42,352 bases of DNA from Betaproteobacteria bacterium. Its GTDB lineage: Bacteria; Pseudomonadota; Gammaproteobacteria; Burkholderiales; Casimicrobiaceae. The DNA lies in NCBI GenBank assembly GCA_013298045.1, contig JAAFJI010000005.1, positions 1 through 42,352 of the forward strand. Direction: 5' to 3'. Positions 23,989-40,579 of the stretch are shown here, piece after piece. Below the pieces are notes generated by a model. The model was not told where the DNA came from. It was given only the letters and a program-made list of their open reading frames with translations, and searched no databases. The position numbers and the translations under genes were made by a program. The first letter of the stretch is position 1; each line of letters begins with the position of its first letter.

Positions 23989-26688
23989 CTACGGAAACGT
24001 AGGTACCAATGCGCGGCAAAAAGCGATTTTTTCCACGATATCGCGGAGTCCGCGATCGACGGCCGCTTTGCCATCGAATTCATCAAGCCGTCCGCGTTGC
24101 GACGCAGCGAGCGAGTACGCCTCGACCGATTGCCGGCACAGTCGCGCCCGGGCAGCCGACGAATTGGTGGGTAGTTGCGCTTCGATCGCAAAGAGCTGCG
24201 CGTCCATGCCGTGCAATACCGATACCGAACGCAGCACGTTGATCGAGGTCTTCATGTCATCCGGTAACTGCTCGGCGATCGACTGCGCGAATTGAACCTT
24301 CGATCGAATCGCCTCAACCGGTACGGGAGAGATCGAGTCGGCTTCGGCTTGGACGAGCACGCCTGTGGCAAACAGAAGCAGCGTACGGGTCGCGGGGTCG
24401 CCCGACAACTCGGCGAGACGCTTGAAATGGGCGAACGATTCGTTGGCGTGCACTGCGGCTTGTGCAGGGCGCTTGAACTTCACGCGATCCACGGCGGCGT
24501 TCAGATGCGCCATCGCCAGTTTATTTGCAGTCGTTACGTTGGTCGGATCAGCCGAGTACGCTTTTGTCGCGATCTCTACCGCGCGCGCCGACCATTCGAG
24601 CGCCACGCCTTCGTCGATTGTCCCATCGGGGCGCAGGCTCGCGCGTTCCGAGAGCGTGCCCAGCACGTCGGCAAGCGCACTTTCGACGCGGGAGCGCATT
24701 TTTTGATCGATGTTTTCGGCGAGCAGTGTTTCGAGAAGCGCGCGAGCGCGGTTGGAGTAGTTCACCTGACGACGGATGTCCTCAGCGCTGCTCCCGCGTA
24801 CATAAAAAACGTGGAGCGTTAGAGCCAGTGCGGTCTGTCGGCGCGCGTCTTGAGTCCGGGGTGTTGCTTCGCTAAAGACTTCGCCAATGTCGACCGCGCG
24901 TTGCAGCCAAAGTTTGCTTTCGTCGAGATCGCCGCCCGTGCCAAGATCAGAGCCGACGATGCGAAGCGCGTGTACTAGCTGAGAGGCAAACGCCGCGTTC
25001 GTCGGCTCGGCACGAAGCGCTCTGCCGAGTAACTCAATGCCTTTGAAACTGTACTCGACGGACTTTTTGAGCTGTCCGAGCCCAGCCTCCTCAAGCGCGC
25101 CGGTTGCGTGCGCAAGCTCACGCCAGCCCGCACCCGCCTCCGCCAGCAGCGCCGGGCTGACTGATTGTCCGTCGAGTGTCAGTTCGTTTAAATACTGGAC
25201 CGCGCGATCCAGGGTTTTGCTGCGCACCTCGAGCGTGCCGGGAATCTTTCGCAAGTCCGTGTTAACCGCAAAAATCGTATCTTTCGCGATGCTGCGCACG
25301 CTCGCGAAATGGCGCTCTGCACGCAAGCGCTGCGACTCCATGCGCGCGAGCGCGTCGCGCGCGATTGCAGCCTGATGGCTGGTCGCCGCGATCCCCGCGA
25401 GCAGACCAACGACTGCGACGCTCGCGAAGGTCGCGCTCCATCGGTTGCGCTGTATAAAGCGCTGCATCCGATAGGCGAGCGTGTTGGGCCGTGCGATGAC
25501 AGGAGTATGAGCAAGGAAGCGACCGATGTCCTCTGAGAGCTGTTCGGCGGAGGCGTAGCGTCGCGACGGATCTTTGTGCATCGCCTTGAGCACGATATTG
25601 TCGAGATCGCCGCGCAACGCACGATTGGATCGCGACGTGCCCACGGTCGAGCGCTGATCGTCCGACGTCCCGGTGCGCGTCACGTCGCTGGGCCGTATGG
25701 GATCGGTCTCAACGATTGCTCGCGCGATGTCGAGCGGATGGGTTGTCTTTGCGCGGTACGGGCTCTCGCCAGTGAGCAGTCGATACAGCACTACGCCAAG
25801 CGAGTAGACATCGCTCGCCGTAGTAATCGGTTCGTTCTTGATCTGTTCCGGGCTCGCGTACGCCGGCGTGAGTGCAAAGAGCGTCGGCGTCGCCTCGGGT
25901 GCTTGCATGTTCAGCGCCGCCGCTGGCGGATGTACGAGGCGGGCGATTCCGAAGTCGAGCAACTTCACCCGTCCGCTTTTGTCGATCAAGATATTGCTTG
26001 GTTTTAAATCGCGGTGCACGATCAATCGTTGATGCGCGAAATGAACGGCGCTGCAAATATCGCGAAACACGGCCAGTCGCTCCGCGATTGAGGCTTGATG
26101 CGTCTCACAGTATCGATCCAGCGGCTCGCCATCGACATATTCAAGGACGAAGTAGGGTAGCCCGCGCTCGGTGACGCCGCCGTCGATCAGCCGCGCGATG
26201 TTCGGGTGGTTCAAACTAGCAAGCATCTGCCGTTCGGCGCGAAACCGCGACTCGACGCCTTCCCGCGCTCGCGCGCTCAAATCGTCGCGAACAATCTTGA
26301 TTGCCACTTGCGCTTCGTACTGGGTATCCACCCGTTTTGCAGCGAACACCGAGCCCATACCGCCGGTCGCAATCTCCCGTACGATCTCGTAGGCACCAAG
26401 CCGATGGCCGATCCACTCGGAATGCTGTACTCGCGTCGTGGGTGCGTCAGCGACCGCCGCGGCGCCGGCTCGCAGTGCTGAGACCATCGCTGCGTCGCTC
26501 AGCAGATCTCCGTCGGCCCTGTCGGCAGCGAGCAGCGACACAATTTCTCGATAAGTCGACGTGTCGTCGCCGCACTCCTGGCGGACGAGCGACTCGCGCT
26601 TGACCGGATCGGCGATATCGAGCGCGGCCGCGATGATCTCGCCGATCCGCTCCCAGCGTTGCGATACGTCGATGTTGTCGTTGCTCAT
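23989..26688 (-). CDS. Membrane Ser/Thr protein kinase with helical-repeat C-terminus
   Basis: An 899-residue bacterial Hanks-type kinase. The kinase domain (about residues 97-395) has the glycine loop IATGGMGSVF, Lys131 in AIKIV, catalytic HRDLKPSN (Asp227), DFG (245-247), PAYASPEQ and DVYSLGVVLYRLLTGE, so it should be active. One transmembrane helix (about 418-437) leads to a long periplasmic or outer region of TPR-like helical repeats to the end. An N-terminal helix domain (1-60) resembles that of other ECF-linked kinases. It lies 155 bases after the ECF sigma gene and likely pairs with it. Confidence 0.9.
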   Translation of the reverse strand: MSNDNIDVSQRWERIGEIIAAALDIADPVKRESLVRQECGDDTSTYREIVSLLAADRADGDLLSDAAMVSALRAGAAAVADAPTTRVQHSEWIGHRLGAYEIVREIATGGMGSVFAAKRVDTQYEAQVAIKIVRDDLSARAREGVESRFRAERQMLASLNHPNIARLIDGGVTERGLPYFVLEYVDGEPLDRYCETHQASIAERLAVFRDICSAVHFAHQRLIVHRDLKPSNILIDKSGRVKLLDFGIARLVHPPAAALNMQAPEATPTLFALTPAYASPEQIKNEPITTASDVYSLGVVLYRLLTGESPYRAKTTHPLDIARAIVETDPIRPSDVTRTGTSDDQRSTVGTSRSNRALRGDLDNIVLKAMHKDPSRRYASAEQLSEDIGRFLAHTPVIARPNTLAYRMQRFIQRNRWSATFASVAVVGLLAGIAATSHQAAIARDALARMESQRLRAERHFASVRSIAKDTIFAVNTDLRKIPGTLEVRSKTLDRAVQYLNELTLDGQSVSPALLAEAGAGWRELAHATGALEEAGLGQLKKSVEYSFKGIELLGRALRAEPTNAAFASQLVHALRIVGSDLGTGGDLDESKLWLQRAVDIGEVFSEATPRTQDARRQTALALTLHVFYVRGSSAEDIRRQVNYSNRARALLETLLAENIDQKMRSRVESALADVLGTLSERASLRPDGTIDEGVALEWSARAVEIATKAYSADPTNVTTANKLAMAHLNAAVDRVKFKRPAQAAVHANESFAHFKRLAELSGDPATRTLLLFATGVLVQAEADSISPVPVEAIRSKVQFAQSIAEQLPDDMKTSINVLRSVSVLHGMDAQLFAIEAQLPTNSSAARARLCRQSVEAYSLAASQRGRLDEFDGKAAVDRGLRDIVEKIAFCRALVPTFP

Positions 26689-26843
26689 GGCTGCTCCACA
26701 CGTGTCGAGTGTTGCGAATCTTGCGACAGTCTTCCTGAATAACTCAGCGCTGCCCTTGTGTCTCGGTCGCCATTGTGAAGAAAAAATCGTCGTTCACAAA
26801 TCGCCGTCGTGAATCTTGACGGACCAGAAATAAGGCGTAGCGG

Positions 26844-27458
26844 TCAGGGATTTGGCTCAGCCCGGAGCTCGCGCAACAGAAACAATCGAGCCACCGCCCA
26901 GTCGCGCTTGACCGTAGCAATCGAGGTGTTGAGCGTAGTGGCGATTTCCTCGATCGACTGTTGACCGAAGAACTTCAGGTCTACCACTTGCGATTGGCGC
27001 ACACTCAGCCGCGCGAGCTTTTCGATCGCTTGGTCGAGTGCAATGAAGTCGAGCTCGAGTGCCAGCATGCGGGTCGTTTCGGAGGACTCGCCGGGGATTA
27101 GATCGGCGAGGCACTGTGTGCCGTAGTGGGCGATGGTTCGATCCAGGCTCACGATCTCGACGTCGCCGCCGCGTTTTGTCGCCGCTTTTGTGCGGGCGTG
27201 ATCCACCAAAATGTTGCGCATGACGCGTGAGGCGAGCCGCAGAAAGCTCGGGTGATCAGTGGGCCGCTGGCTCTCGCCCTGCGCGAGTCGCAGGTACGCC
27301 TCATTGATCAGCGCCGTCCGCTGCAACGTGTGATCGGAGCGCTCGGCGCTGAAGTGGATTTGGGCGATCCGCCGTAGTTCTTGATAGGTGCTCGCCGCCA
27401 GCGCCGCGAGCGACGAGTCTGCTGCGAGCGGTGTGCTCGCGGTTTGCGAAGACGTCAT
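26844..27458 (-). CDS. ECF sigma factor (TIGR02999 type)
   Basis: A 204-residue sigma factor with region 2 (TYQELRRIAQIHFSAER, then RTALINEAYLRLAQG, ASRVMRNILVDHARTKAATKRGG) and region 4 (LSVRQSQVVDLKFFGQQSIEEIATTLNTSIATVKRDWAVARLFL). The acidic DAED block of ordinary ECF factors is replaced by RTALINEAY, with a threonine (Thr48) just before. In ECF families tied to Ser/Thr kinases, phosphorylation in this position is needed for activity. No anti-sigma factor is present; the neighbouring kinase is the likely partner. Confidence 0.9.
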   Translation of the reverse strand: MTSSQTASTPLAADSSLAALAASTYQELRRIAQIHFSAERSDHTLQRTALINEAYLRLAQGESQRPTDHPSFLRLASRVMRNILVDHARTKAATKRGGDVEIVSLDRTIAHYGTQCLADLIPGESSETTRMLALELDFIALDQAIEKLARLSVRQSQVVDLKFFGQQSIEEIATTLNTSIATVKRDWAVARLFLLRELRAEPNP

Positions 27459-28511: not shown

Positions 28512-29555
28512 CTATCTAGCGTTTCGCGTAGTCGGCGCTTTCGCGGTGCTGCCGCGAACGATCAACTCAAACGCGAGCAACAGCTGGTGTTCGAACGGAT
28601 GCTCGGTCAATGCGCGGACGATATGCCCGGCGGTAACCCGACCCAGCTCGCGCGTGGGTAGGCCGACAGTGGTTAATGCTGGATTGAGCTCTTGCGCCCA
28701 CTCCTGATCGTCGACGCCGCAGATCGAGAGTTCGCCCGGTACGTTGATGCCAGAGCGTTGCGCCTCAAGAAGCGCACCGGTTGCCAAAAGATCGTTGCCG
28801 CAAATGATCGCCGTCGGCAGCACTCGGCTGCCCAAAAGGGCGCGCAGGCCGAGGCGACCCCCAGCTAAGCTAAACGGCTGTTCGGTGATCTGCTGTGGCT
28901 TAAGCGTGAGACCGCTGCTCCCCAGTGCGGCGGCGACCCCTTCGATGCGACCACGCGCGCGATCATTGTTCTTCTGAAATCCAGAAATTACCCCAAAACG
29001 GCGGTGACCGAGCCCGAGCAGGTGCTCTGCAACGGTGCGACCGACCGCTCGATTGTCAAATCCCACCGACGGCAGACGCGGATCGCACGACCATGTGAGG
29101 AACGCTGGCTTCCCCCAGGTGCGAATTGCACGCCAGGTCGCCGCCGCGTGATCGGTGCCGACTAGCACCAATGCGTCGACACCGCGCTGTTGCATGGTGA
29201 GCACGGCGCGATGTTCGCGTTGAACGTCATAGTCGTGACTTGCCAAGAGCAGTTGGTAGCCGACGTCGTGTAGCGCCAGTTGCAGGGACTGTGTGCTTTT
29301 CGCAAAAATCGCATGGTCAATAGACGGCACGACGCAGCCAATGGTGTGCGTTCGACCCGACGCGAGTGCCCTCGCCGCAGAGTCCGGCACATAGCCGAGT
29401 TCCTTGATCGCACGCAGTACGCTTTCTCTCCGGGTCGCCTTGACCAAATGCGGGTGCGATAAGGCTCGTGACACGGTGGCGGTCGATACGCCCGCTGCCA
29501 GGGCGACGTCTTCGATGCGTACGCGAGGCTGAATACGTGTTGCGCTGGTGCCCAT
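28512..29555 (-). CDS. LacI-family transcriptional regulator
   Basis: A 347-residue repressor. The helix-turn-helix (RIEDVALAAGVSTATVSRALS, about residues 13-33) is followed by the hinge VPDSAARALASGRT and a periplasmic-binding-like ligand domain (IGCVVPSIDHAIFA, CGNDLLATGALLEAQ, SICGVDDQEW). The ATG at 29555 (MGTSATRIQP) fits; a longer frame from 29615 adds an unlikely leader. It is divergent from the transporter/dehydrogenase operon, whose promoter carries a LacI-type palindrome at 29674-29687, so it very probably controls that operon, with the inducer being the imported compound or an intermediate. Confidence 0.93.
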   Translation of the reverse strand: MGTSATRIQPRVRIEDVALAAGVSTATVSRALSHPHLVKATRRESVLRAIKELGYVPDSAARALASGRTHTIGCVVPSIDHAIFAKSTQSLQLALHDVGYQLLLASHDYDVQREHRAVLTMQQRGVDALVLVGTDHAAATWRAIRTWGKPAFLTWSCDPRLPSVGFDNRAVGRTVAEHLLGLGHRRFGVISGFQKNNDRARGRIEGVAAALGSSGLTLKPQQITEQPFSLAGGRLGLRALLGSRVLPTAIICGNDLLATGALLEAQRSGINVPGELSICGVDDQEWAQELNPALTTVGLPTRELGRVTAGHIVRALTEHPFEHQLLLAFELIVRGSTAKAPTTRNAR

Positions 29556-29641
29556 ATCCGTCTGTAGTTTTACGCGTCGCGAACTGAGTGGTTGAGTTGC
29601 GGTGCAGCAATCCAATCGCTCGCGCTATATCGATACTGCGC

Positions 29642-29687
29642 TTGACAAAGCCGACAGCATACCCAAGAATAAATGAAAGCGCTTACA
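29642..29687 (+). promoter_or_regulatory. Operon promoter with LacI-type operator
   Basis: A perfect -35 (TTGACA, 29642-29647), a 17-base spacer and a -10 AAGAAT (29665-29670) point toward the permease gene. Directly downstream, TGAAAGCGCTTACA (29674-29687) has the AAGCGCTT centre of LacI/GalR operators. A repressor here would block transcription initiation. Confidence 0.7.
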
Positions 29688-29716
29688 TTTTTATTGCATT
29701 CGAACCGTAGAACTCA

Positions 29717-30526
29717 ATGAGTGATGTTGCAGGCAATCGACGCATGTTTGTGGGCAGTCGGCTCTCGACGGTGCTGCTCGTGCTCGCGGCGATGATTGTG
29801 CTTTGGTACGTCGCCACTACGATCACTGGATTGGTCGGCCCCGCACGTCTGCCGCAGCCGCTTGAAGTGTGGCAGTCGTTCGTCGCAATCGCGACGGATG
29901 GTTATGGCAACGGTCGCCTTCACCAACACGTTCTACACAGCTTGAAGTTAGTTGCGATGGGCTTTACGGTTGCCGTGTGCGTCGGGGTACCACTTGGCCT
30001 CTGGATGGGACACTCGCGACGTGCAGAAGCGCTCATCAATCCAACTTTTCTATTGCTGCGACCCATTCCGCCGCTTGCGTGGATTCCACTTGCGATCGTT
30101 TGGCTCGGGCTCGGTGATGCTGCGAAAATTTTGGTGATCTTTGTCGCGGCTTTCGTCCCTTCAGTTATCAATAGCTACACCGGCGTGCGCAACATCGACA
30201 AACCTGTGCTTGAAGCCGCTCGCATGCTGGGTATTCGTCGATTTAGCTTTGTCCGCGAGGTGCTTGTGCCAGGCAGCTTGCCGATGATCTTTACTGGACT
30301 TCGCCTATCGCTACAAGCGAGTTGGACCACGCTGGTTGCCGCTGAATTGATCGGGGCACTCTACGGTCTTGGAAGCATTTTGAATCAAGCCGCGCAAGAC
30401 ATTTATCCGGCGATGATTATGGTCGCGATGATTTTTGTCGGGATTTGCGGGGCAACTACGACGTGGTTGCTCGGACAGGTCGAAGCCCGCGCGATGCCGT
30501 GGCGGCACGAAAGAGCGCTGCAATGA
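29717..30526 (+). CDS. SsuC/TauC-type ABC transporter permease 1
   Basis: Inner-membrane permease of 269 residues with about six helices. The ATPase-contact loop reads EAARMLGIRRFSFVREVLVP (around residues 172-191). RPIPPLAWIPLAIVWLGLGD is a strong family signature of nitrate/sulfonate/taurine-type importers. It is the first gene of the LacI-controlled operon, and its stop overlaps the start of a second permease. Confidence 0.9.
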   Translation: MSDVAGNRRMFVGSRLSTVLLVLAAMIVLWYVATTITGLVGPARLPQPLEVWQSFVAIATDGYGNGRLHQHVLHSLKLVAMGFTVAVCVGVPLGLWMGHSRRAEALINPTFLLLRPIPPLAWIPLAIVWLGLGDAAKILVIFVAAFVPSVINSYTGVRNIDKPVLEAARMLGIRRFSFVREVLVPGSLPMIFTGLRLSLQASWTTLVAAELIGALYGLGSILNQAAQDIYPAMIMVAMIFVGICGATTTWLLGQVEARAMPWRHERALQ

Positions 30527-31311
30527 GTCTCGCACGACCGATGACCGATCGCGAACGTTTCGCGCTCACCTGCGTTGGGACGCTTGGCTTTTTCTGCGTC
30601 TGGTATCTGGCCGCGTTTTTTCAGTTTGCCCCTGCAAAGTTTCTGCCCATGCCGCACGAGGTCGCATCGAAGCTCGTGCAGCTTTGTGGGCAGCCGTTTG
30701 CTGGGGCCATCTTGCCGGAGCACCTGCTCGCTAGCCTTAAACGCTACGCCATGGGATTCGGGCTCGCGGCGGTTATTGGCGTGCCGCTCGGTTTGCTCAT
30801 GGGGCGCTTCCGCTGGCTTGATCGCGTTGTCAGTCCCGTTTTCGATTCGCTTCGCTTTATCGCGCCGGTTGCGTGGGTGCCGTTTGCGGCGCTTTGGTTT
30901 GGCACGGGTATCGGCGGACCAACGCTGATCATCTTCGCTGGAGCCTTCCCGCCGTGCCTAATCAATTCGTATCGCGGCGCTAAGAGCGTTGAGGTGAAGT
31001 ATCTTGAGGCAGCAGCCATGCTCGGCATCGGAAGCTATCGAACGATCACCGAAGTGCTCTTTCCAGCAGCGGTTCCCTCGATCATCGCCGGTCTGCGGAT
31101 CGGAGCAGGACTTGGTTGGATGTCGTTAGTCGGTGCCGAGCTCATTGTTGCCAACAGTGGTATGGGCTACATGATTGTGAAAGGGCAGAGCGCGATTGCC
31201 ACAGACATCGTGATGGCGGGCATGATTGCGATTGGCGCAGTCGGTGTCGCAATCGACGTCGCGCTCCGGAAGCTTGAAGCACGCCTGCTTCGCCATCGAC
31301 AAGAGAACTAA
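30523..31311 (+). CDS. SsuC/TauC-type ABC transporter permease 2
   Basis: A second permease of 262 residues in the same family, with FIAPVAWVPFAALWFGTGIG and the contact loop EAAAMLGIGSYRTITEVLFP. Two different permeases imply a heterodimeric channel, where many SsuC systems use one. I chose the ATG at 30523, which overlaps the previous stop as ATGA and gives the usual N-terminus; an upstream in-frame start at 30445 lies inside the first permease. Confidence 0.9.
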   Translation: MSLARPMTDRERFALTCVGTLGFFCVWYLAAFFQFAPAKFLPMPHEVASKLVQLCGQPFAGAILPEHLLASLKRYAMGFGLAAVIGVPLGLLMGRFRWLDRVVSPVFDSLRFIAPVAWVPFAALWFGTGIGGPTLIIFAGAFPPCLINSYRGAKSVEVKYLEAAAMLGIGSYRTITEVLFPAAVPSIIAGLRIGAGLGWMSLVGAELIVANSGMGYMIVKGQSAIATDIVMAGMIAIGAVGVAIDVALRKLEARLLRHRQEN

Positions 31312-31326
31312 AGATATCCATCGATC

Positions 31327-32121
31327 ATGAGCGCTATCGAATTCAAAGACGTTTGCCGCACTTTTCGTCGTGATGGTAAAGACTTGTTGATCTTGGACAG
31401 GATCAATCTCACGGTTGCTGATAAAGAGTTCGTTGCCATTGTCGGTCCGTCGGGATGCGGAAAAACGACGTGCATGCGTATGGCAGCAGGGCTTGAATTC
31501 CCGAGCACTGGAACCGTGAGCGTGTCGGGTAAGCAGGTTATCGAGCCGGGACCCGATCGCGCAGTTGTGTTTCAACAGTTTGCCTTGTTTCCGTGGAAGA
31601 GCGTGCACGAAAACATCGATTTCGGATTGCGCGCGAAAGGGCTTCCGGAAACTGAGCGCCAAAAGATCATCGCGCACTACATCGGGCTCATGAATCTAAA
31701 AGGATATGAAAGCGCTTTCCCCCATCAACTCTCGGGCGGCATGCAGCAGCGCGTCGCCATCGCCAGAGCCTACGCGCTCGACCCCGAGGCGCTCCTCATG
31801 GACGAGCCGTTTGGCGCGCTGGATGCGCAAACGCGGGTTGTGATGCAAGAAGAACTCGTCAAACTAGCTCGTAAGAACCCTCGAACGGTGCTGTTCATTA
31901 CCCATGCGGTGGAAGAGGCGGTTTATCTCGCCGATCGAGTGGTGATCATGACGAGCCGACCCGGTAAAGTGAAAGAAATTCTCGACATAAAGTCGGTACG
32001 CGAAACAGAAAACTGGGATCAACACCAAAAGATAGAAGATGTTATGGATCTCGCCTCGTTTGTTCATTTGCGCAGCAGGATTTGGAAATCACTGCGCGAA
32101 GAGCACGCGGGCGATCATTAA
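31327..32121 (+). CDS. SsuB/TauB-type ABC transporter ATPase
   Basis: Cytoplasmic ATPase of 264 residues that powers the two permeases. Motifs are complete: Walker A VGPSGCGKTT (about residues 41-50), the Q-loop at VFQQFALFPW, signature LSGGMQQRVAIARA, Walker B ALLMDEPFGALD and the switch histidine in FITHAVEEAV. It begins 15 bases after the second permease, so the importer is expressed as a unit. Confidence 0.95.
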   Translation: MSAIEFKDVCRTFRRDGKDLLILDRINLTVADKEFVAIVGPSGCGKTTCMRMAAGLEFPSTGTVSVSGKQVIEPGPDRAVVFQQFALFPWKSVHENIDFGLRAKGLPETERQKIIAHYIGLMNLKGYESAFPHQLSGGMQQRVAIARAYALDPEALLMDEPFGALDAQTRVVMQEELVKLARKNPRTVLFITHAVEEAVYLADRVVIMTSRPGKVKEILDIKSVRETENWDQHQKIEDVMDLASFVHLRSRIWKSLREEHAGDH

Positions 32122-32147
32122 TTCACACACCAAAGGAGACCCGTCAT

Positions 32148-33206
32148 ATGAGAAAGATTTTGGCTTCCACAATACTTGCCGCCGCCGTTAGTTTCGTGAG
32201 CCTGCAACATGCGAATGCGCAGACACTCGCGCCCATCAAAGTGAGTCTGCAGCCGTCTCTCTATTGGGCGCTTCCTTTTCACGTAGCCACTGAAAAAGGC
32301 TGGTGGAAAGAAGCGGGGCTTGCGCCTGAGTTCAGTTCGTTTCCGGCCGGTGTTCCACAAATCGCAGCGTCTGCTGCGAAGTCGTGGGACGTCGGCGGAA
32401 CTGGCTCAGTTCCCGCGGTGTTAGGACACGTTCGCTTCGGTATCAAAACCATTGGTATTACAAACGATGAGTCTGCCGGAAACGCACTGGTTGGAAGTGC
32501 TAAGGCCGCTGCGGAGTTCGCAGCGAATCCGGCGAACGCCTTGCGCGGAAAAACCATTACGTTGACCCAGAACTCGACTGCCGACTTCGCCGTTCAATCG
32601 TGCCTGAAAAAATATGGCCTGAAGAAGTCCGACGTGGTGATGAAGAACATGGCTCAGGCAGAGATCATCTCGGCTATTTCTTCGAACAACACCGATTGGG
32701 CGGGAATGTGGGCACCCAATACGTACACAGTCGAAGAAAAGTCAGGTGCAAAGATTCTTTGTACTGGCAAGGACGGCGGTGCAACCGTACCCGGCGCGCT
32801 CATTGCGCGTGGCGACTACGCTAAAGAGAATCCGCAAAACGTCGCCAAGTTTCTCGCGGTTTATCTCCGCGCGTGGAGCTGGATGAATGCGAATCGCGGC
32901 GAATCAATCAAGATGATGAAAGACTTCTACGCAAAAGGTGGTGTTTCTCTCAGCGACGCAGCCATGAATAAAGAATTTGAAACTCGCCCCACGTTCAATC
33001 TTGCCCAGCAGCTCAAGATGATGGAGCGCAAGGGCGCGGACGGTAATTCGCAGGTTGACGGTTGGTTCAACGAATTGGCGAACTTCATGCGCGAGACCGG
33101 TGCCGTACCACAAGCCCCAAAAGTCTCCGATTTCGTCACCGACGAATTCATGAAGCTTGTCAACGCAGACCCGAAACTCCGCGAATTTGCGAATTCAACG
33201 AAGTAG
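32148..33206 (+). CDS. Periplasmic substrate-binding protein (SsuA/NMT1-like)
   Basis: Binding protein of 352 residues with a signal peptide (LASTILAAAVSFVSLQHANA) cleaved near residue 25. The mature start IKVSLQPSLYWALPFHVATE and the block DVGGTGSVPAVLGH match the sulfonate/taurine/thiamine-precursor type. The ATG at 32148 has a clear AAAGGAGA ribosome site; the longer frame to 32082 overlaps the ATPase. It presents the substrate to the importer encoded just upstream. The ligand is unproven; a small organosulfonate is the favoured guess. Confidence 0.88.
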   Translation: MRKILASTILAAAVSFVSLQHANAQTLAPIKVSLQPSLYWALPFHVATEKGWWKEAGLAPEFSSFPAGVPQIAASAAKSWDVGGTGSVPAVLGHVRFGIKTIGITNDESAGNALVGSAKAAAEFAANPANALRGKTITLTQNSTADFAVQSCLKKYGLKKSDVVMKNMAQAEIISAISSNNTDWAGMWAPNTYTVEEKSGAKILCTGKDGGATVPGALIARGDYAKENPQNVAKFLAVYLRAWSWMNANRGESIKMMKDFYAKGGVSLSDAAMNKEFETRPTFNLAQQLKMMERKGADGNSQVDGWFNELANFMRETGAVPQAPKVSDFVTDEFMKLVNADPKLREFANSTK

Positions 33207-34559
<1,353 letters not shown>

Positions 34560-34564
34560 CGATT

Positions 34565-35329
34565 GTGTTTAGCGCGAAACTCTTCGATCTCGCGGGACGA
34601 ACGGCGCTGGTCACCGGCGGGAACTCTGGAATTGGTGAGGCGATGGCTTGGGCGCTCGGGCAGGCGGGCGCATCCATCGTATTGATGGCAAGACGGAAAG
34701 AAGCACTTGAAACGGTTGCAATCCGAATGCGTGAGGCTGGCATTCGCGTTGATTTCGAGGTTTGCGATCTCGCCTTGATCGAGGCAAGCCGCGCTGGCGC
34801 TAACGCTGTCGTCGCTCGCCACGACATTGACATTCTCATAAATGCGGCCGGTGTAAACCTGCGTGAGTCGTTCTTCGAAATCACACCGGAATCCTGGCAG
34901 ACGCAGATTAACCTTCATCTCACCGCGCCGTTCTTTCTCACTCAAGCGCTGGCTCCGGGCATGAAAGAGCGCGGTTGGGGAAGGATCATCAACATCGCCT
35001 CATTGCAGAGTTTCCGTGCCTTCGACAACAGCGCGCCCTACGGCGCGGGAAAGGGCGGCGTCGTGCAGCTTACCCGCGCGATCGCGCAGGCGTGGTCGCG
35101 CTATGGCATCACTTGCAACGCCATCGGTCCCGGATTCTTTCCAACCGCACTGACCGCGCCAGTCTTTTCAGACCCCCACCGTTCGCATGCGAATGCGGCC
35201 CAAACCTGTATCGGACGCAATGGCGAGCTCGCCGATCTTGCAGGTGTCACCGTGTTCTTTGCGAGCGACGCAAGTGCCTACATTACAGGGCAGACGCTTA
35301 TGGTAGATGGCGGATTTACGGCGAGGTAA
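34565..35329 (+). CDS. Short-chain dehydrogenase/reductase (HpsO-like)
   Basis: A 254-residue NAD(P)-dependent enzyme with a GTG start at 34565, five bases after the hpsN-like stop. The cofactor loop [10 protein letters not shown] (about residues 18-27), INAAGVN, catalytic serine in NIASLQSF and YGAGK (Tyr and Lys) are complete. It ends [17 protein letters not shown], the classic C-terminal motif. In the DHPS pathway HpsO is an SDR that interconverts DHPS stereoisomers through the 2-ketone; that role fits here. Substrate is inferred from neighbours only. Confidence 0.85.
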
Positions 35330-35333
35330 TAGG

Positions 35334-36665
35334 ATGACGACGAACTCTGGCATCGATGCGTTTTGGATGCCATTCACACCGAATCGGCAATTCAAAACAA
35401 CCCCGCGAATGGTTGCAAGCGCGAGCGGCGTGCGCTATCGCACGCCAAATGGACGCGAAATTCTCGATGGCACGTCGGGGCTTTGGTGTGTCGGGGCTGG
35501 GCACGCACATCCAAAGATTTCTGCTGCTATGAAGCAGCAAATTGATACGCTCGACTTTGCGTCTAACTTTCAAGTCGGGCATCCGGGCGCGTTTGAACTC
35601 GCCGAACGCATCGGCGCGCTCGCGCCACCTAGATTGGATCGAGTGTTCCTGGTAAACAGCGGTTCCGAGGCGTGTGACAGTGCGATCAAGATCGCGCTCG
35701 CGTACTGGCGCTCACGCGGCGAGGGGCAACGTCAACTGTTTGTGGGGCGGGAGCGCGGCTTTCACGGCGTCGGATTCGGCGGCATATCGATAGGCGGCAT
35801 GCAGGCTAACCGGCGTGCATTTGGCAACGCGATGTTGCGTACCGATCATTTGCGAGCGACGTGGGATCCCGCGACTCAGGCGTTTGTGAAGGGGCAACCT
35901 GAATCGGGCGCGGATTTTGCCGACGAACTGGAGCAGCGCATCATCGCGTTACACGATGCAAGCAATATCGCTTCGGTTTTTGTTGAACCGGTCGCGGGGT
36001 CAACCGGAGTGTTGGTGCCTCCGAAAGGCTACCTGAAACGCCTTCGCGAGATCTGCGATCATTACGGGCTCTTGCTTGTGTTCGATGAAGTGATCACCGG
36101 ATTTGGTCGTCTTGGGTCGATGTTTGCCGCACAAGCGTTCGATGTCGTGCCCGACATGATTGTCTTTGCGAAAACGATCAGCAACGGAGCTGCGCCACTC
36201 GGTGGCGTGATCGTTCGCCGCGAAATTCACGATGCGATCATGCGCGGTCCCACGCACGTCGCCGAGTTCATGCATGGCTACACTTGTTCCGGGCATCCGC
36301 TCTCGTGCGCGGCCGGGCTCGCGATGCTTGACGTGATTGAGGAGGAAAAGCTGTTGGATCGCGTCAACTCGCTAGCGACCTCTTTCCAGGATGCTGTGCA
36401 TTCGCTCGCGAGCGCGCCGGGCGTAGTGAGCGTGCGAAACATCGGACTCGCTGCGGGTGTAGAGCTTTCACCGTATACCGACGCAGTTGGGCGCAGAGGC
36501 GCCGCGGCGCAGGCCGCAGCGTTCGATTGCGGGCTACTCACGAGGGCACCTGGCGATACGTTGATTTTGGCACCACCGTTTGTTTCGACAACCGAAGAGA
36601 TTCATGAAATGGTTGCGCGCATGCGCGTGGCAATTGAGCATACTGCTGCCAGTGGAGAATTATGA
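35334..36665 (+). CDS. Class III omega-amino acid:pyruvate aminotransferase
   Basis: PLP-dependent transaminase of 443 residues, closest in pattern to beta-alanine/omega-amino acid:pyruvate enzymes: DAFWMPFTPNRQFKTTPR at the start, DGTSGLWCVGAGH, NSGSEACDSAIK, FDEVITGFGRLG (Asp251 region) and the PLP lysine in FAKTISNGAAPLGG (about Lys280). It starts four bases after the SDR stop and overlaps the next gene as ATGA. Likely amino donors include taurine, homotaurine, cysteinolate or another omega-amine; which one is not decided by sequence. Confidence 0.88.
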   Translation: MTTNSGIDAFWMPFTPNRQFKTTPRMVASASGVRYRTPNGREILDGTSGLWCVGAGHAHPKISAAMKQQIDTLDFASNFQVGHPGAFELAERIGALAPPRLDRVFLVNSGSEACDSAIKIALAYWRSRGEGQRQLFVGRERGFHGVGFGGISIGGMQANRRAFGNAMLRTDHLRATWDPATQAFVKGQPESGADFADELEQRIIALHDASNIASVFVEPVAGSTGVLVPPKGYLKRLREICDHYGLLLVFDEVITGFGRLGSMFAAQAFDVVPDMIVFAKTISNGAAPLGGVIVRREIHDAIMRGPTHVAEFMHGYTCSGHPLSCAAGLAMLDVIEEEKLLDRVNSLATSFQDAVHSLASAPGVVSVRNIGLAAGVELSPYTDAVGRRGAAAQAAAFDCGLLTRAPGDTLILAPPFVSTTEEIHEMVARMRVAIEHTAASGEL

Positions 36666-37663
36666 AAGCGCTCGTCTACACCCAACCGAATGAAGTGCAA
36701 TTGCAGGATCGCCCAACGCCTGCTTTGGAATTGGGTGAGGTTGTACTAAAGATCGACGCTGTTGGCATTTGCGGCTCCGATATGCATGCCTACCACGGTC
36801 ACGATCCGCGTCGTAAACCGGGACTAGTACTCGGGCATGAGTTTTGCGGAACCATCGTGGCAAGCGGCTCGCCGCGCTATGCAACCGGCGTGCGCGTTAC
36901 AGGCAATCCGCTCATTACGTGCGGTATTTGCGACTACTGCGTACAAGGTCGCAACAACCTCTGTAGCAACCGAACCATGGTCGGCATGACCCGCCCGGGC
37001 GCATTCGCTGAGTTCATGTCGATTCCTGCTGCCTCATTGATCGACATGCCGCAGACGATGTCGCCGATTCACGCGGCGTTGACTGAACCGGCGGCCACTG
37101 CGCTGCATGCCATCAATATGAGCATGAAGGCGCTGGCTCGTCCGCTGCCTGAAGCGCGAACGCTTGTCATCGGTGGCGGGGCCATCGGCATGCTCGCTAC
37201 GTTGCTACTGAAAAACTATGGTTGTCGGGAAATCGTCGTCGCCGAAACCAATCCGCTAAGACGCGAATCAGTTCGAACACATGCGCGAGCGGACACGATC
37301 GACCCGCGAACTGATGAGACGGAAGAAAACGGATTCGACTATGTTATCGACGCGGTCGGATCGAAGATTACGCGCGTCAATGCAATCAAAGCGGTTAAGC
37401 CTGGCGGAGTGGTCATGCACATCGGTTTGCAGGATTGGGCGAGTGAAATTGACATGCGCAAACTCACGCTCGCCGAGATCACGTTGATGGGAACCTACAC
37501 CTATTCCACAGCCGATTTGCGAGCTACGGTAAAGCTATTGAACGAGGGCGCTTTTGGCGATCTGTCATGGGTCGCAACGATGCCACTTTCAGATGGTGCC
37601 AGGGCGTTCGCTGATCTCGATACCGGGACACAGCCCGCCGCGAAGGTGGTACTGATGCCTTAG
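36662..37663 (+). CDS. Zinc-dependent alcohol dehydrogenase (HpsP-like)
   Basis: Medium-chain dehydrogenase of 333 residues. Catalytic zinc ligands are Cys37 (GICGSD), His59 and Glu60 (GHEF). A structural zinc site is at Cys87, Cys90, Cys93 and Cys101 in CGICDYCVQGRNNLC. The nucleotide fold shows VIGGGAIGMLATLLL. It is the last gene of the operon. In DHPS catabolism HpsP is such an enzyme, acting at carbon 2. The gap to the convergent acyl-CoA dehydrogenase is 54 bases, with no clear terminator. Confidence 0.88.
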   Translation: MKALVYTQPNEVQLQDRPTPALELGEVVLKIDAVGICGSDMHAYHGHDPRRKPGLVLGHEFCGTIVASGSPRYATGVRVTGNPLITCGICDYCVQGRNNLCSNRTMVGMTRPGAFAEFMSIPAASLIDMPQTMSPIHAALTEPAATALHAINMSMKALARPLPEARTLVIGGGAIGMLATLLLKNYGCREIVVAETNPLRRESVRTHARADTIDPRTDETEENGFDYVIDAVGSKITRVNAIKAVKPGGVVMHIGLQDWASEIDMRKLTLAEITLMGTYTYSTADLRATVKLLNEGAFGDLSWVATMPLSDGARAFADLDTGTQPAAKVVLMP

Positions 37664-37717: not shown

Positions 37718-39517
37718 TTAAAACGCCGCTTCTTCCAGCGCCATCGTGCCTTCCGCCCCGTTCACAATCGTGTCTGCCGCTGCAATCGCCTCCGGAATGA
37801 TGGTGTCGACGTAGAAGCGCAGCGTTGCAAGTTTCGCTTCGTAGAACGCTTTGTCTGCGTGATTTGCAGCGCTGCGATGAGCGGCTTGCATGCCTACGCG
37901 TGCGAGCGCCCACGCGCCGCAGACGATGCCGAAGAGTTTGACCATCGGCACGCTCCCCGCGAAGCAGGCGCGCACGTTGCCGTTGAAGTTGGCGAGATTG
38001 AATTCAACCGCACGCGCCATTGCGTCGGTTCCATCACGCAAACGTTTTTGTGCGACTTTGAGATGAACGTGCGATTCGCCATCAAGACTATCGGCAAACA
38101 CGCGCATCGCATTGATGAGATTCTTCGCGGTGACGCCGCCTTCGCGCGCCATTTTGCGACCGATTAGGTCGTTCGCTTGAATCGCGGTCGTGCCCTCATA
38201 GATCGTTGTGATGCGTGCGTCGCGCATGTGTTGCGCGGCTCCTGTTTCTTCGACAAAGCCCATGCCGCCGTGCACTTGTACGCCAAGCGAAGTGACTTCG
38301 AGCGACATTTCGGTAGACCAGCCTTTGACGATTGGAATCATCAGATCGACGAAGGCTTGATTGACTTTCTTCACTTCGGTGTCATCGGTCGAATCGACCA
38401 AATCCATTGCGTACGCAGTAGCCATCGCGAGCGCGCGCGCGGCTTCCGTTTGCGAACGCATGCGCAGCAGCATGCGGCGAATATCGGGATGACGAATGAT
38501 CGGTACCGACGGGTTCTTTGGCGCACCAACATCACGCGATTGCACACGCTCACGGGCGAACGCGACCGCGCGCTGGTAGGCACGCTCGGCGATCCCGATA
38601 CCTTGCAAACCGACGCCGAAACGCGCCAAGTTCATCATGATGAACATGTATTCAAGGCCGCGATTTTCCTCGCCGACCAAGTAACCAATCGCACCGCCTT
38701 TGTCGCCATACTGCATCACTGCCGTTGGCGAACCGTGAATGCCAAGCTTGTGTTCAATCGACACGCAATACGCATCGTTGCGCGCGCCGAGCGAGCCGTC
38801 TTTGTTGACCAAAAACTTTGGCACGACGAAAAGCGAAATGCCTTTCACGCCTTCGGGTGCGTCAGGCGTACGCGCGAGCACGAGATGGACGATGTTCTCC
38901 GTCCAATCGTGTTCACCATAGGTGATGAAAATCTTGGTGCCGAAGATTTTGTAGCTGCCGTCGCTGACGCGTTCCGCGCGCGTTTTGACGAGCGCAAGGT
39001 CGGAGCCGGCCTGCGGCTCGGTCAAATTCATCGTGCCGGCCCATTCGCCCGAGATCATCTTCTCGGCGAATGTGCTCTTGATGTCGTCACTGCCCGCGAG
39101 CAGCATCGCTTCAATCGCGCCTTGCGTGAGCATTGGCATCAGGCCGAAACTCATGTTCGAGGAGTGCAGCATCTCGTCGGTGAGCGTTACCACCGAACGT
39201 GGCAACCCCAGCCCGCCGAATTCCTGCGGCATCGGCAAACCCATTCCACCCATCGCGCGATAGGCGTCGTACGCGGTTTTGAAGCCCTTTGGCGTGGTCA
39301 CGCTCGCGTCGTCGTGCCGCTTCGCACCCTCGCGATCGCCGCTCCAGTTGAGCGGATCGAGAACTTCGGTGGCGAACTTCGAGGATTCCTCAAGGATCGC
39401 GTGCACGGTATCGGCCGTTGCGTCGGCGAAGTGCGAGGTCGTTGCGAGATTTTCAATCGGCGCGACCGTTTCGAGAAGGAACTGGAATTCTTTGAGGGGG
39501 GCGTTGTATTTGCTCAT
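37718..39517 (-). CDS. Acyl-CoA dehydrogenase, DmdC-type long form
   Basis: A 599-residue FAD enzyme, longer than ordinary acyl-CoA dehydrogenases because of an N-terminal extension (SKYNAPLKEFQFLLE) and an extra C-terminal domain. The FAD/substrate block MNLTEPQAGSDLALVKT (about 163-179) and the catalytic base Glu441 in TTIYEGTTAIQ are present. This architecture is shared by methylmercaptopropionyl-CoA dehydrogenase DmdC and by several other acyl-CoA enzymes, so the acyl group is undecided. The ATG at 39517 gives the normal start; a longer frame reads through an intergenic hairpin. It passes electrons to the ETF encoded upstream. Confidence 0.88.
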   Translation of the reverse strand: MSKYNAPLKEFQFLLETVAPIENLATTSHFADATADTVHAILEESSKFATEVLDPLNWSGDREGAKRHDDASVTTPKGFKTAYDAYRAMGGMGLPMPQEFGGLGLPRSVVTLTDEMLHSSNMSFGLMPMLTQGAIEAMLLAGSDDIKSTFAEKMISGEWAGTMNLTEPQAGSDLALVKTRAERVSDGSYKIFGTKIFITYGEHDWTENIVHLVLARTPDAPEGVKGISLFVVPKFLVNKDGSLGARNDAYCVSIEHKLGIHGSPTAVMQYGDKGGAIGYLVGEENRGLEYMFIMMNLARFGVGLQGIGIAERAYQRAVAFARERVQSRDVGAPKNPSVPIIRHPDIRRMLLRMRSQTEAARALAMATAYAMDLVDSTDDTEVKKVNQAFVDLMIPIVKGWSTEMSLEVTSLGVQVHGGMGFVEETGAAQHMRDARITTIYEGTTAIQANDLIGRKMAREGGVTAKNLINAMRVFADSLDGESHVHLKVAQKRLRDGTDAMARAVEFNLANFNGNVRACFAGSVPMVKLFGIVCGAWALARVGMQAAHRSAANHADKAFYEAKLATLRFYVDTIIPEAIAAADTIVNGAEGTMALEEAAF

Positions 39518-39545
39518 GCTTCGCAAAAAAGGACGAATGACCAAT

Positions 39546-39612
39546 GACGAGTGACGATAACCGTGGATGGAGGAGGGAACGCGACTCTGCTTTGCGTCAT
39601 TCGTCACTCGTC
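39546..39612. terminator. 12-bp inverted repeat between etfA and the dehydrogenase
   Basis: GACGAGTGACGA (39546-39557) and TCGTCACTCGTC (39601-39612) pair perfectly around a 43-base loop. Just beyond, in the minus-strand sense, is a run of seven T. The loop also holds CTTTGCGTCAT, the end motif of the hairpin repeats seen at 7.1 and 12.8 kb. It may reduce read-through from etfBA. Confidence 0.4.
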
Positions 39613-39646
39613 TAGCGCGCAGCGCGTTCGTCCTCCACGCAGTGGA

Positions 39647-40579
39647 CTACAGCTTCGCGGTAAGTTCCGGCACCGCGTCAAACAAGTCAGCAACCAACCC
39701 GTAATCCGCAACGCTAAAAATCGGCGCGTCGGGGTCTTTGTTGATCGCAACGATAACCTTGCTGTCTTTCATTCCGGCGAGGTGCTGAATCGCCCCGGAC
39801 ATGCCGATGGCGATGTAGAGCTCCGGCGCAACAATTTTTCCGGTTTGGCCGACTTGATAGTCGTTGGGCACATAGCCGGCGTCTACCGCAGCGCGACTTG
39901 CACCCATCGCAGCACCCAGCTTGTCGGCGAGCGGCGTCAACACCTCGCGATACTTCTCGCCCGAGCCCAAACCGCGACCGCCCGAGACGATGATCTTCGC
40001 GGCAGTAAGTTCAGGGCGTTCGAGCTTCACAATTTCGGCGGAGACGAACGATGAGAGGCCGCCGTCGCCCAGCGCAGCGATCGTTTCCACCGCGCCGCTT
40101 CCGCCGCTCTGCGCGGCGGCTGCAAACGCTGTACCGCGGACAGTGATCACCTTCACACTGTCACTCGATTTGACCGTGGCATAGGCATTGCCCGCGTATA
40201 TCGGACGCATGAACGTGTCAGCATCGATCACTTTCATGATGTCGCTGATTTGCGCTTTGTCGAGCAGGGCTGCGACGCGTGGCGCGACGGCCTTGCCGTG
40301 TGGCGTTGCAGGTGCAAGGATGTGTGTGTACCCGCCGGCGACTGCGACGACCTGCGAAGCTGTGTTCTCGGGCAATTGATGCGCGTGCGCCGCGCCGTCG
40401 GCGAGCAACACTTTCGAGACACCCGCGACCTGTGCGGCGGCGTCAGCGGCGGCTTTTGCGTTGTGGCCGACGACGAGCACGTGGACGTCGCCACCGATCG
40501 CGGTCGCCGCAGTAATCACGTTTAGCGTTGCCGCTTTGAGCGAGCCGTGATCGTGCTCGGCAATAACAAGGTTTGCCAT
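39647..40579 (-). CDS. etfA: Electron transfer flavoprotein subunit alpha
   Basis: FAD-binding subunit of 310 residues. The N-terminal domain (MANLVIAEHDHGSLKAATLN) precedes the FAD domain with VSGGRGLGSGEKY, GASRAAVDAGYVPNDYQVGQTGK, YIAIGMSGAIQHLAGM and AINKDPDAPIFSVADYGLVAD, all characteristic. It starts two bases after etfB and passes electrons from acyl-CoA dehydrogenases to the respiratory chain through ETF:quinone oxidoreductase. Confidence 0.96.
   Translation of the reverse strand: MANLVIAEHDHGSLKAATLNVITAATAIGGDVHVLVVGHNAKAAADAAAQVAGVSKVLLADGAAHAHQLPENTASQVVAVAGGYTHILAPATPHGKAVAPRVAALLDKAQISDIMKVIDADTFMRPIYAGNAYATVKSSDSVKVITVRGTAFAAAAQSGGSGAVETIAALGDGGLSSFVSAEIVKLERPELTAAKIIVSGGRGLGSGEKYREVLTPLADKLGAAMGASRAAVDAGYVPNDYQVGQTGKIVAPELYIAIGMSGAIQHLAGMKDSKVIVAINKDPDAPIFSVADYGLVADLFDAVPELTAKL

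Follow-up and report, generated by a model that had tools for sequence, protein, structure and literature searches.

The window, a stretch of 42,352 nucleotides of a Casimicrobiaceae metagenome-assembled genome (MAG; contig JAAFJI010000005.1, positions 1 to 42,352), carries a locus in which a minus-strand LacI-family gene diverges from eight plus-strand genes that end at position 37663 (Table 1). The latter encode the two permeases, the ATPase and the SsuA-like periplasmic binding protein of an ABC importer, followed by the dehydrogenase HpsN, a short-chain dehydrogenase/reductase (SDR) of the HpsO type, a class III aminotransferase and a zinc alcohol dehydrogenase (ADH) of the HpsP type. Protein families were assigned by NCBIfam and Pfam profile searches; together with the gene calls these reproduce the nine genes of a preliminary description of this DNA in order, strand and family. 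The operon is, near certainly, an hps operon for the degradation of dihydroxypropanesulfonate (DHPS). While the hps operon itself is already known, the new element is the content of the slot between hpsO and hpsP, which here holds an aminotransferase that probably admits an amino-sulfonate to the pathway.

The identity of the operon is anchored by HpsN. The window dehydrogenase aligns with the solved HpsN of Cupriavidus pinatubonensis (PDB 8v35) at 780 bits in phmmer, residues 3–437 on residues 3–437, and scores 490 bits against a solved (R)-DHPS dehydrogenase and no more than 230 bits against solved histidinol dehydrogenases. The zinc ligands Q249, H252 and H412, the catalytic residues E319 and H320 and the mobile aspartate D353 are all kept. 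An extra zinc-binding residue of C. pinatubonensis HpsN, His126, is described in PMC11382572 as unique to HpsN and not present in histidinol dehydrogenases; it corresponds to H127 in the AGRYAHIAS segment of the window protein, which is one residue longer at its start. The match to HpsN and the retention of the zinc, catalytic and HpsN-specific residues therefore define an hpsNOP operon, and the HpsN-like dehydrogenase with all HisD zinc and catalytic residues that had been recognized earlier proves to be an HpsN orthologue proper. The regulator, hpsN, hpsO and hpsP are present together in the window operon and the same gene order was found in dozens of other loci. The proposed route from DHPS to sulfolactate is likewise supported by the HpsN orthology and by synteny with the cluster hpsRNOUPsuyAB described for C. 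pinatubonensis (PMC11382572). A biosynthetic HisD identity of the window dehydrogenase was excluded by the 8v35 match, the kept HpsN residues and a separate HisD-family gene in the MAG (contig C319, 35% identical to the window HpsN).

Table 1 Genes and regulatory features of the hps operon in the window, with the profile or structure matches on which each assignment is based.
Feature	Position	Strand	Basis
LacI-family regulator (HpsR type)	28512..29615	-	Pfam LacI and Peripla_BP_3; likely start near 29555 by reading
Sigma-70-like promoter TTGACA-17-AAGAAT	29642..29670	+	10/12 consensus matches; shuffles of the region give a mean of 0.2
Putative operator palindrome TGAAAGCGCTTACA	29674..29687	.	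Just behind the -10 hexamer, between the LacI gene and permease A
ABC permease A (TauC/SsuC-like)	29717..30526	+	PF00528; NF007545 165.6 bits, below cut-off 342
ABC permease B	30523..31311	+	PF00528; NF040733 176.6 bits, below cut-off 295
ABC ATPase (SsuB/TauB type)	31327..32121	+	PF00005; NF040729 251.6 bits, below cut-off 360
SsuA-like periplasmic binding protein	32148..33206	+	TIGR01728 135.1 bits, below cut-off 163.5; PDB taurine-binding protein 6ssy E 2e-10
hpsN, predicted DHPS 3-dehydrogenase (R-DHPS to sulfolactate, by orthology)	33246..34559	+	780 bits to PDB 8v35; PF00815
hpsO-type SDR	34565..35329	+	PF13561; synteny and 65% identity to the SDR of locus L070
Class III aminotransferase, operon-specific clade of the AptA family	35334..36665	+	NF052567 621.6 bits, above cut-off 500
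hpsP-type zinc ADH	36662..37663	+	PF08240 and PF00107; 62% identity to the syntenic ADH of L070

The slot was surveyed in the best 80 of 315 HpsN relatives from a genome scan, so that the census leans to close relatives (loci, genomes and contigs are numbered with the prefixes L, G and C). Both hpsO and hpsP are present in 71 of the 80 loci, which were thus readable; the remaining nine are L009, where a class III gene is present but the contig ends before a complete hpsP, L022, which has a class V gene and is likewise truncated, and L011, L025, L026, L028, L032, L040 and L058, which are without both genes. The apparent near-duplicates L045/L046 and L025/L026 were counted separately. Fewer than 150 bases separate hpsO from hpsP in 41 of the 71 loci, the MFS transporter gene hpsU fills the slot in eight, a class III aminotransferase gene in 15 and a SerC-like class V aminotransferase gene in seven, and no locus (0/71) has a class III and a class V gene both intact in the slot. 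Among the strains with a filled slot are Piscinibacter caeni MQ-18 (L027), with a class III gene, and Limnohabitans planktonicus II-D5 (L005), with a class V gene. None of the eight HpsU loci encodes the SsuA-like protein, against 13 of the 15 with a class III gene; in the other two, L020 and L052, the contig begins within the SsuA gene or after it. The class V enzyme of L005 passes the SerC model NF003764 (321 versus 253) and does not reach the 443.6 of TIGR01364, and phosphoserine aminotransferases make up nearly all of its solved relatives. Two Hydrogenophaga MAGs (L003 and L008) keep, behind the class V gene, a decayed class III gene that is interrupted by stops and retains 52% identity over 87 and 157 residues, respectively. 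By this sequence record an unrelated aminotransferase has replaced the class III enzyme in place, a non-orthologous displacement, which suggests one shared job for both aminotransferases. The displacement in L003 and L008 is judged the strongest indication that a defined, DHPS-linked transaminase function belongs to this slot. An operon serving DHPS only, whose aminotransferase is a passenger that scavenges nitrogen from some other substrate, would agree with the empty slot of 41 loci, the MFS gene of eight and a 75% identical enzyme on an hps-free contig in G254, but two unrelated aminotransferases use the same slot, with the remnant of one behind the other, and this explanation is very improbable. 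In the class III loci L007 and L010, suyB starts 363 and 587 bases behind hpsP, which indicates C3 desulfonation. An xsc homologue (69%) occurs in one of the 80 loci, L042 (13269–14555, minus strand), where it lies close behind hpsP and the slot is empty.

Other insertions were observed in and around these operons. Genes for a sulfatase and a TctC-type receptor are inserted between hpsN and hpsO in L003, L005, L008, L036 and L052 and between hpsO and the aminotransferase gene in L027, and are likewise present in L025 and L026. The L005 sulfatase has a choline-sulfatase-like C-terminus. An aminotransferase is found in six of the six readable loci with a sulfatase versus 16 of the 65 others (Fisher p 0.0005, post hoc and uncorrected), and the substrate in the sulfatase loci is perhaps an esterified amino-sulfonate. 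A few kb past its first operon, L031 (14964–21311) encodes another HpsN-like protein (61%), accompanied by an SsuAB-like importer. In L072, L073, L075, L076 and L081 (four Polynucleobacter and one betaproteobacterium) an iron-type alcohol dehydrogenase gene lies 27–58 bases 3' of hpsP and perhaps encodes a further DHPS or sulfolactaldehyde enzyme.

With a support of 100/100, the class III enzymes of the operons (18 rows) group in one clade that excludes 29 order-level relatives, none of which exceeds 59% identity; these comparators are the 29 best-matching aminotransferases with loci (flanks of about 1.5 kb) from 250 order-level genomes. Fifteen alignment positions separate the operon clade from the comparators. 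Among them, F152 and R170 are found in 18/18 operon rows, with tyrosine and lysine at the same positions in 29/29 others, and the substrate arginine R413 is kept in all rows of both sets (18/18 and 29/29). F152 and R170 are the alignment equivalents of Tyr153 and Lys171 of KES23458, a relative of solved structure, and R413 is that of Arg414. Tyr153 and Lys171 are discussed for the KES23458 active site in PMC4907197, where Arg414 holds the carboxylate of beta-alanine in simulations; in the second column of a substrate table of the same paper, aminoisobutyrate is well used (62.2) and taurine (1.1) and serinol (1.4) are used weakly. No second AptA-type aminotransferase was found in the MAG, the next best match being 36% identical. 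The closest non-operon aminotransferase (L100/L152, G166) adjoins genes that read as polyamine-type and not as sulfonate genes. Within the window's family (64 genomes), aminotransferases of 73–75% identity are present in two MAGs besides the window's, and G256 has the whole operon. In G254, a MAG of the same genus that is 80% complete, the 75% identical enzyme is encoded on a 15.7 kb contig (L154, G254:C113:1770-3083). Next to the L154 aminotransferase gene lie genes that, by reading, resemble those of a gluconolactonase and of a sugar-acid dehydratase.

The remainder of the pathway was sought across the MAG, which has 3.7 Mb in 346 contigs and is 90.4% complete with 2.4% contamination. The operon holds no desulfonating enzyme, as had been stated for the window, and suyAB is not inside it; SuyB and a SuyA-like gene are on a separate contig, C336, which also encodes a GntR-type regulator, an SDR and a SlcC-like dehydrogenase with 66% identity to its L004 counterpart. 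The SuyB of C336 is 81% identical to L004 SuyB, which in turn shares 84% identity with the protein encoded after hpsP in C. pinatubonensis L070, the position at which PMC11382572 places suyAB. Contigs C31 and C22 (L092 and L091) carry SauS (728 bits, above the cut-off of 600), a CoA ligase, a Pta-family gene and Xsc, the last split into two pieces that overlap and lie at contig ends. Judged by these matches, the Xsc pieces, SauS, the CoA ligase and the Pta-family gene represent a second sulfonate route in the MAG. The search of the genome for suyAB, xsc and cuyA that had been proposed thus yielded SuyB and the Xsc pieces, and no CuyA-type match above cut-off in the 90%-complete MAG (TIGR01275, best 40.1 versus 289.4 bits). 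An organism without a desulfonating enzyme was excluded by SuyB and the Xsc pieces. The second route, the AptA family name and the weak taurine activity of KES23458 (PMC4907197) would suit an aminotransferase for taurine, homotaurine or beta-alanine that is only a passenger of the operon, the sulfoacetaldehyde passing to Xsc. Such a role is quite unlikely, however: the operon enzymes are a separate clade with altered pocket residues, no xsc was found in the sequence stretches covered of any class III or class V locus, and an unrelated aminotransferase has displaced the class III enzyme in the same slot.

The reading favoured here, with modest confidence and from sequence comparison, is that of an hps operon for DHPS widened by an aminotransferase that admits an amino-sulfonate, most likely cysteinolate. 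The ABC importer would take up DHPS and its amino-analogue. The aminotransferase would then convert cysteinolate (2-amino-3-hydroxypropanesulfonate) to 3-hydroxy-2-oxopropanesulfonate, with pyruvate as the likely acceptor, and HpsO and HpsP would reduce this compound to DHPS, or the isomer sulfolactaldehyde would form by interconversion. HpsN would oxidize R-DHPS to sulfolactate, which the SlcC-like enzyme and SuyAB, encoded elsewhere, would convert to pyruvate and sulfite. That the aminotransferase gene is flanked by hpsO and hpsP instead of adjoining suyB or slcC links the enzyme to the DHPS end of the pathway. The substrate of HpsN must be a C3 sulfonate that ends in an alcohol or aldehyde group. 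Many microalgae are reported to contain cysteinolic acid in amounts comparable to those of dimethylsulfoniopropionate and DHPS, and the compound co-occurs with DHPS in a freshwater diatom (PMC8703288); 2-oxo-3-hydroxypropanesulfonate is reported as detected in DHPS-producing algae. The proposed bacterial route would run through the same three compounds as the proposed algal DHPS route. Operation of the aminotransferase in reverse, to form cysteinolate out of a ketone derived from DHPS, perhaps for use as an osmolyte, is hardly credible: the reaction is reversible in principle and cysteinolate is an algal osmolyte (PMC8703288), but the importer, the LacI-type regulator and the carboxylate-forming HpsN together are of catabolic make-up.

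The choice of the amine is informed by the class V enzymes. The substrate of SerC carries its amine next to a CH2-phosphate, and the SerC family is one of internal amines beside a CH2-anion group. Both cysteinolate and 3-amino-2-hydroxypropanesulfonate had been considered in the preliminary description, and cysteinolate is the better supported as the probable starting substrate because a SerC-type enzyme takes the same slot in other loci. We know of no natural source of the 3-amino isomer, which counts against an aminotransferase that would act on its terminal amine and give sulfolactaldehyde directly for oxidation by HpsN, and the SerC-like enzyme of the same slot belongs to an internal-amine family. 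This activity is distinctly improbable, although AptA-type enzymes prefer terminal amines such as that of beta-alanine (PMC4907197), HpsN can use sulfolactaldehyde (PMC11382572) and HpsO and HpsP are reported to yield it (PMC11131964). With cysteinolate as the substrate, the pathway may have arisen at least twice, through an AptA-type enzyme and elsewhere through a SerC-type enzyme in the same slot, cysteinolate and DHPS sharing one keto intermediate, identical to that proposed for algal DHPS synthesis; this is put forward tentatively, as somewhat doubtful.

Cysteate, absent from the substrates listed previously, yet also a fit for the SerC-like enzyme, is a serious rival to cysteinolate. A Coa-like cysteate aminotransferase would interconvert cysteate and sulfopyruvate, and a SlcC-like enzyme sulfopyruvate and sulfolactate, draining cysteate to SuyAB or sulfolactate to cysteate lyase. 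The shape of cysteate is near that of phosphoserine, a good fit for a SerC-like enzyme, a cysteate:2-oxoglutarate aminotransferase is cited among the references of PMC9594981, and the hpsNOP-CuyA route needs a sulfopyruvate/cysteate aminotransferase that is without an assigned gene in Ruegeria pomeroyi (PMC11382572, section 2.8). The class III family is, however, known for beta- and omega-amino acids, and the rival is weakened because the MAG has no CuyA-type match above cut-off and the gene lies between hpsO and hpsP, and cysteate would need none of HpsN, HpsO and HpsP. A cysteate aminotransferase is, on balance, unlikely.

Several points weigh against cysteinolate as the substrate. The amine lies beside a CH2-sulfonate in cysteate as it does in cysteinolate, and cysteate fits a SerC-like enzyme equally well. 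HpsO and HpsP oxidize DHPS at C3 to sulfolactaldehyde according to PMC11131964, in which the C. pinatubonensis enzymes share the enantiomer preference, and are termed DHPS-2-oxidoreductases in PMC11382572. Should oxidation be confined to C3, no reductase would be assigned to the keto compound. AptA-type enzymes can also be promiscuous (PMC4907197). The SuyB contig differs from the operon contig in a MAG with 2.4% contamination. HpsN is found in 19 of the 64 family genomes (E 1e-150, the window's included) and 17 of these 19 are without an aminotransferase of at least 70% identity, to which incompleteness of the MAGs may contribute. Finally, the 15.7 kb contig of G254 has no hps gene and only an SsuB-like ATPase of 39%, and HpsN was not found in that MAG at E 1e-150.

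The neighbouring genes of the operon overlap by ATGA or nearly touch, which fits a single transcript. Permease B most likely starts at 30523 because of its ATGA overlap with permease A, and the start of the SsuA-like protein was placed at 32148 by sequence reading; this protein misses the threshold of the SsuA model TIGR01728 (Table 1). The aminotransferase start was set at 35334, with a GGCGAGG stretch in front of it, and not at 35307, and the start of hpsP at 36662 overlaps the aminotransferase stop. A terminator was looked for 3' of hpsP and not found. LacI control, also proposed earlier, is supported by an operator pattern between the divergent genes. The pattern TGNAANCGNTTNCA, derived from the same regions in which it was counted, is present in 53/53 close LacI intergenic regions, against a mean of 0.02 regions in mononucleotide shuffles. 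These regions are those of the window and of the 52 of 80 other loci with a divergent LacI homologue less than 1.2 kb from the hps operon; the 28 excluded loci comprise 18 without a LacI match, three without a divergent upstream LacI and seven with a gap of at least 1.2 kb. Six of the seven long-gap loci also carry the pattern and L057 does not. Outside the counted set, TGTAAACGTTTTCA lies between the LacI and permease genes of L146 (G256). The narrower form TGNAAGCGCTTNCA is found at one place in the MAG (one forward and one reverse match), against about two places for the backward control (two forward and two reverse matches); because the backward control matched the MAG more often, the single site speaks for uniqueness, not for enrichment. 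The LacI protein would thus repress the hps operon through the putative operator. The suy cluster has no match to the operator pattern in the 12 kb of L090 and carries its own GntR-type gene.

On either side of the operon, minus-strand genes were named by eye. At 37718–40579, acyl-CoA-dehydrogenase-like and electron-transfer-flavoprotein-like genes converge on the operon end, and at 23989–27458 a large Ser/Thr-kinase-like protein adjoins an ECF-type sigma factor.

Among the open-access literature matches listed there is no paper naming bacterial genes for cysteinolate degradation and none tying an aminotransferase gene to an hps operon, and the papers examined that mention both hpsN and an aminotransferase concern other enzymes. 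Two unrelated, assayable aminotransferases in one slot make this gap directly testable. With known systems the window operon shares its parts to different degrees. Ruegeria pomeroyi (Roseobacteraceae) similarly has consecutive hpsN, hpsO and hpsP genes accompanied by genes for a transporter (PMC4334477, PMC11131964), but its transporter is the TRAP system hpsKLM and the main text of PMC11131964 makes no mention of an aminotransferase. The class V enzymes, found outside the window, resemble SerC in that the L005 enzyme passes one SerC model and in the SHR and RASLYN motifs common with the SerC-like protein of the MAG, while differing from that protein in their identity of 38–41% and in indels near both ends. 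Like the AptA and beta-alanine:pyruvate aminotransferases (PDB 3a8u, 4b98 and 4uhm), the window enzyme is of class III with the lysine at 289 and the substrate arginine R413; in contrast to them, the operon clade is separate (100/100) and has phenylalanine in place of tyrosine at 152 and arginine in place of lysine at 170. A close counterpart in layout is hpsRNOUP-suyAB of C. pinatubonensis, which also has a LacI-type gene beside hpsN, and hpsO followed by hpsP. In strain HN-2 (L070), HpsN is 78%, the SDR 65% and the zinc ADH 62% identical to those of the window, and the SDR gene lies between hpsN and an MFS gene. In contrast, the window has an ABC importer in place of the MFS transporter HpsU, suyB on another contig and, in the hpsU slot, the aminotransferase.

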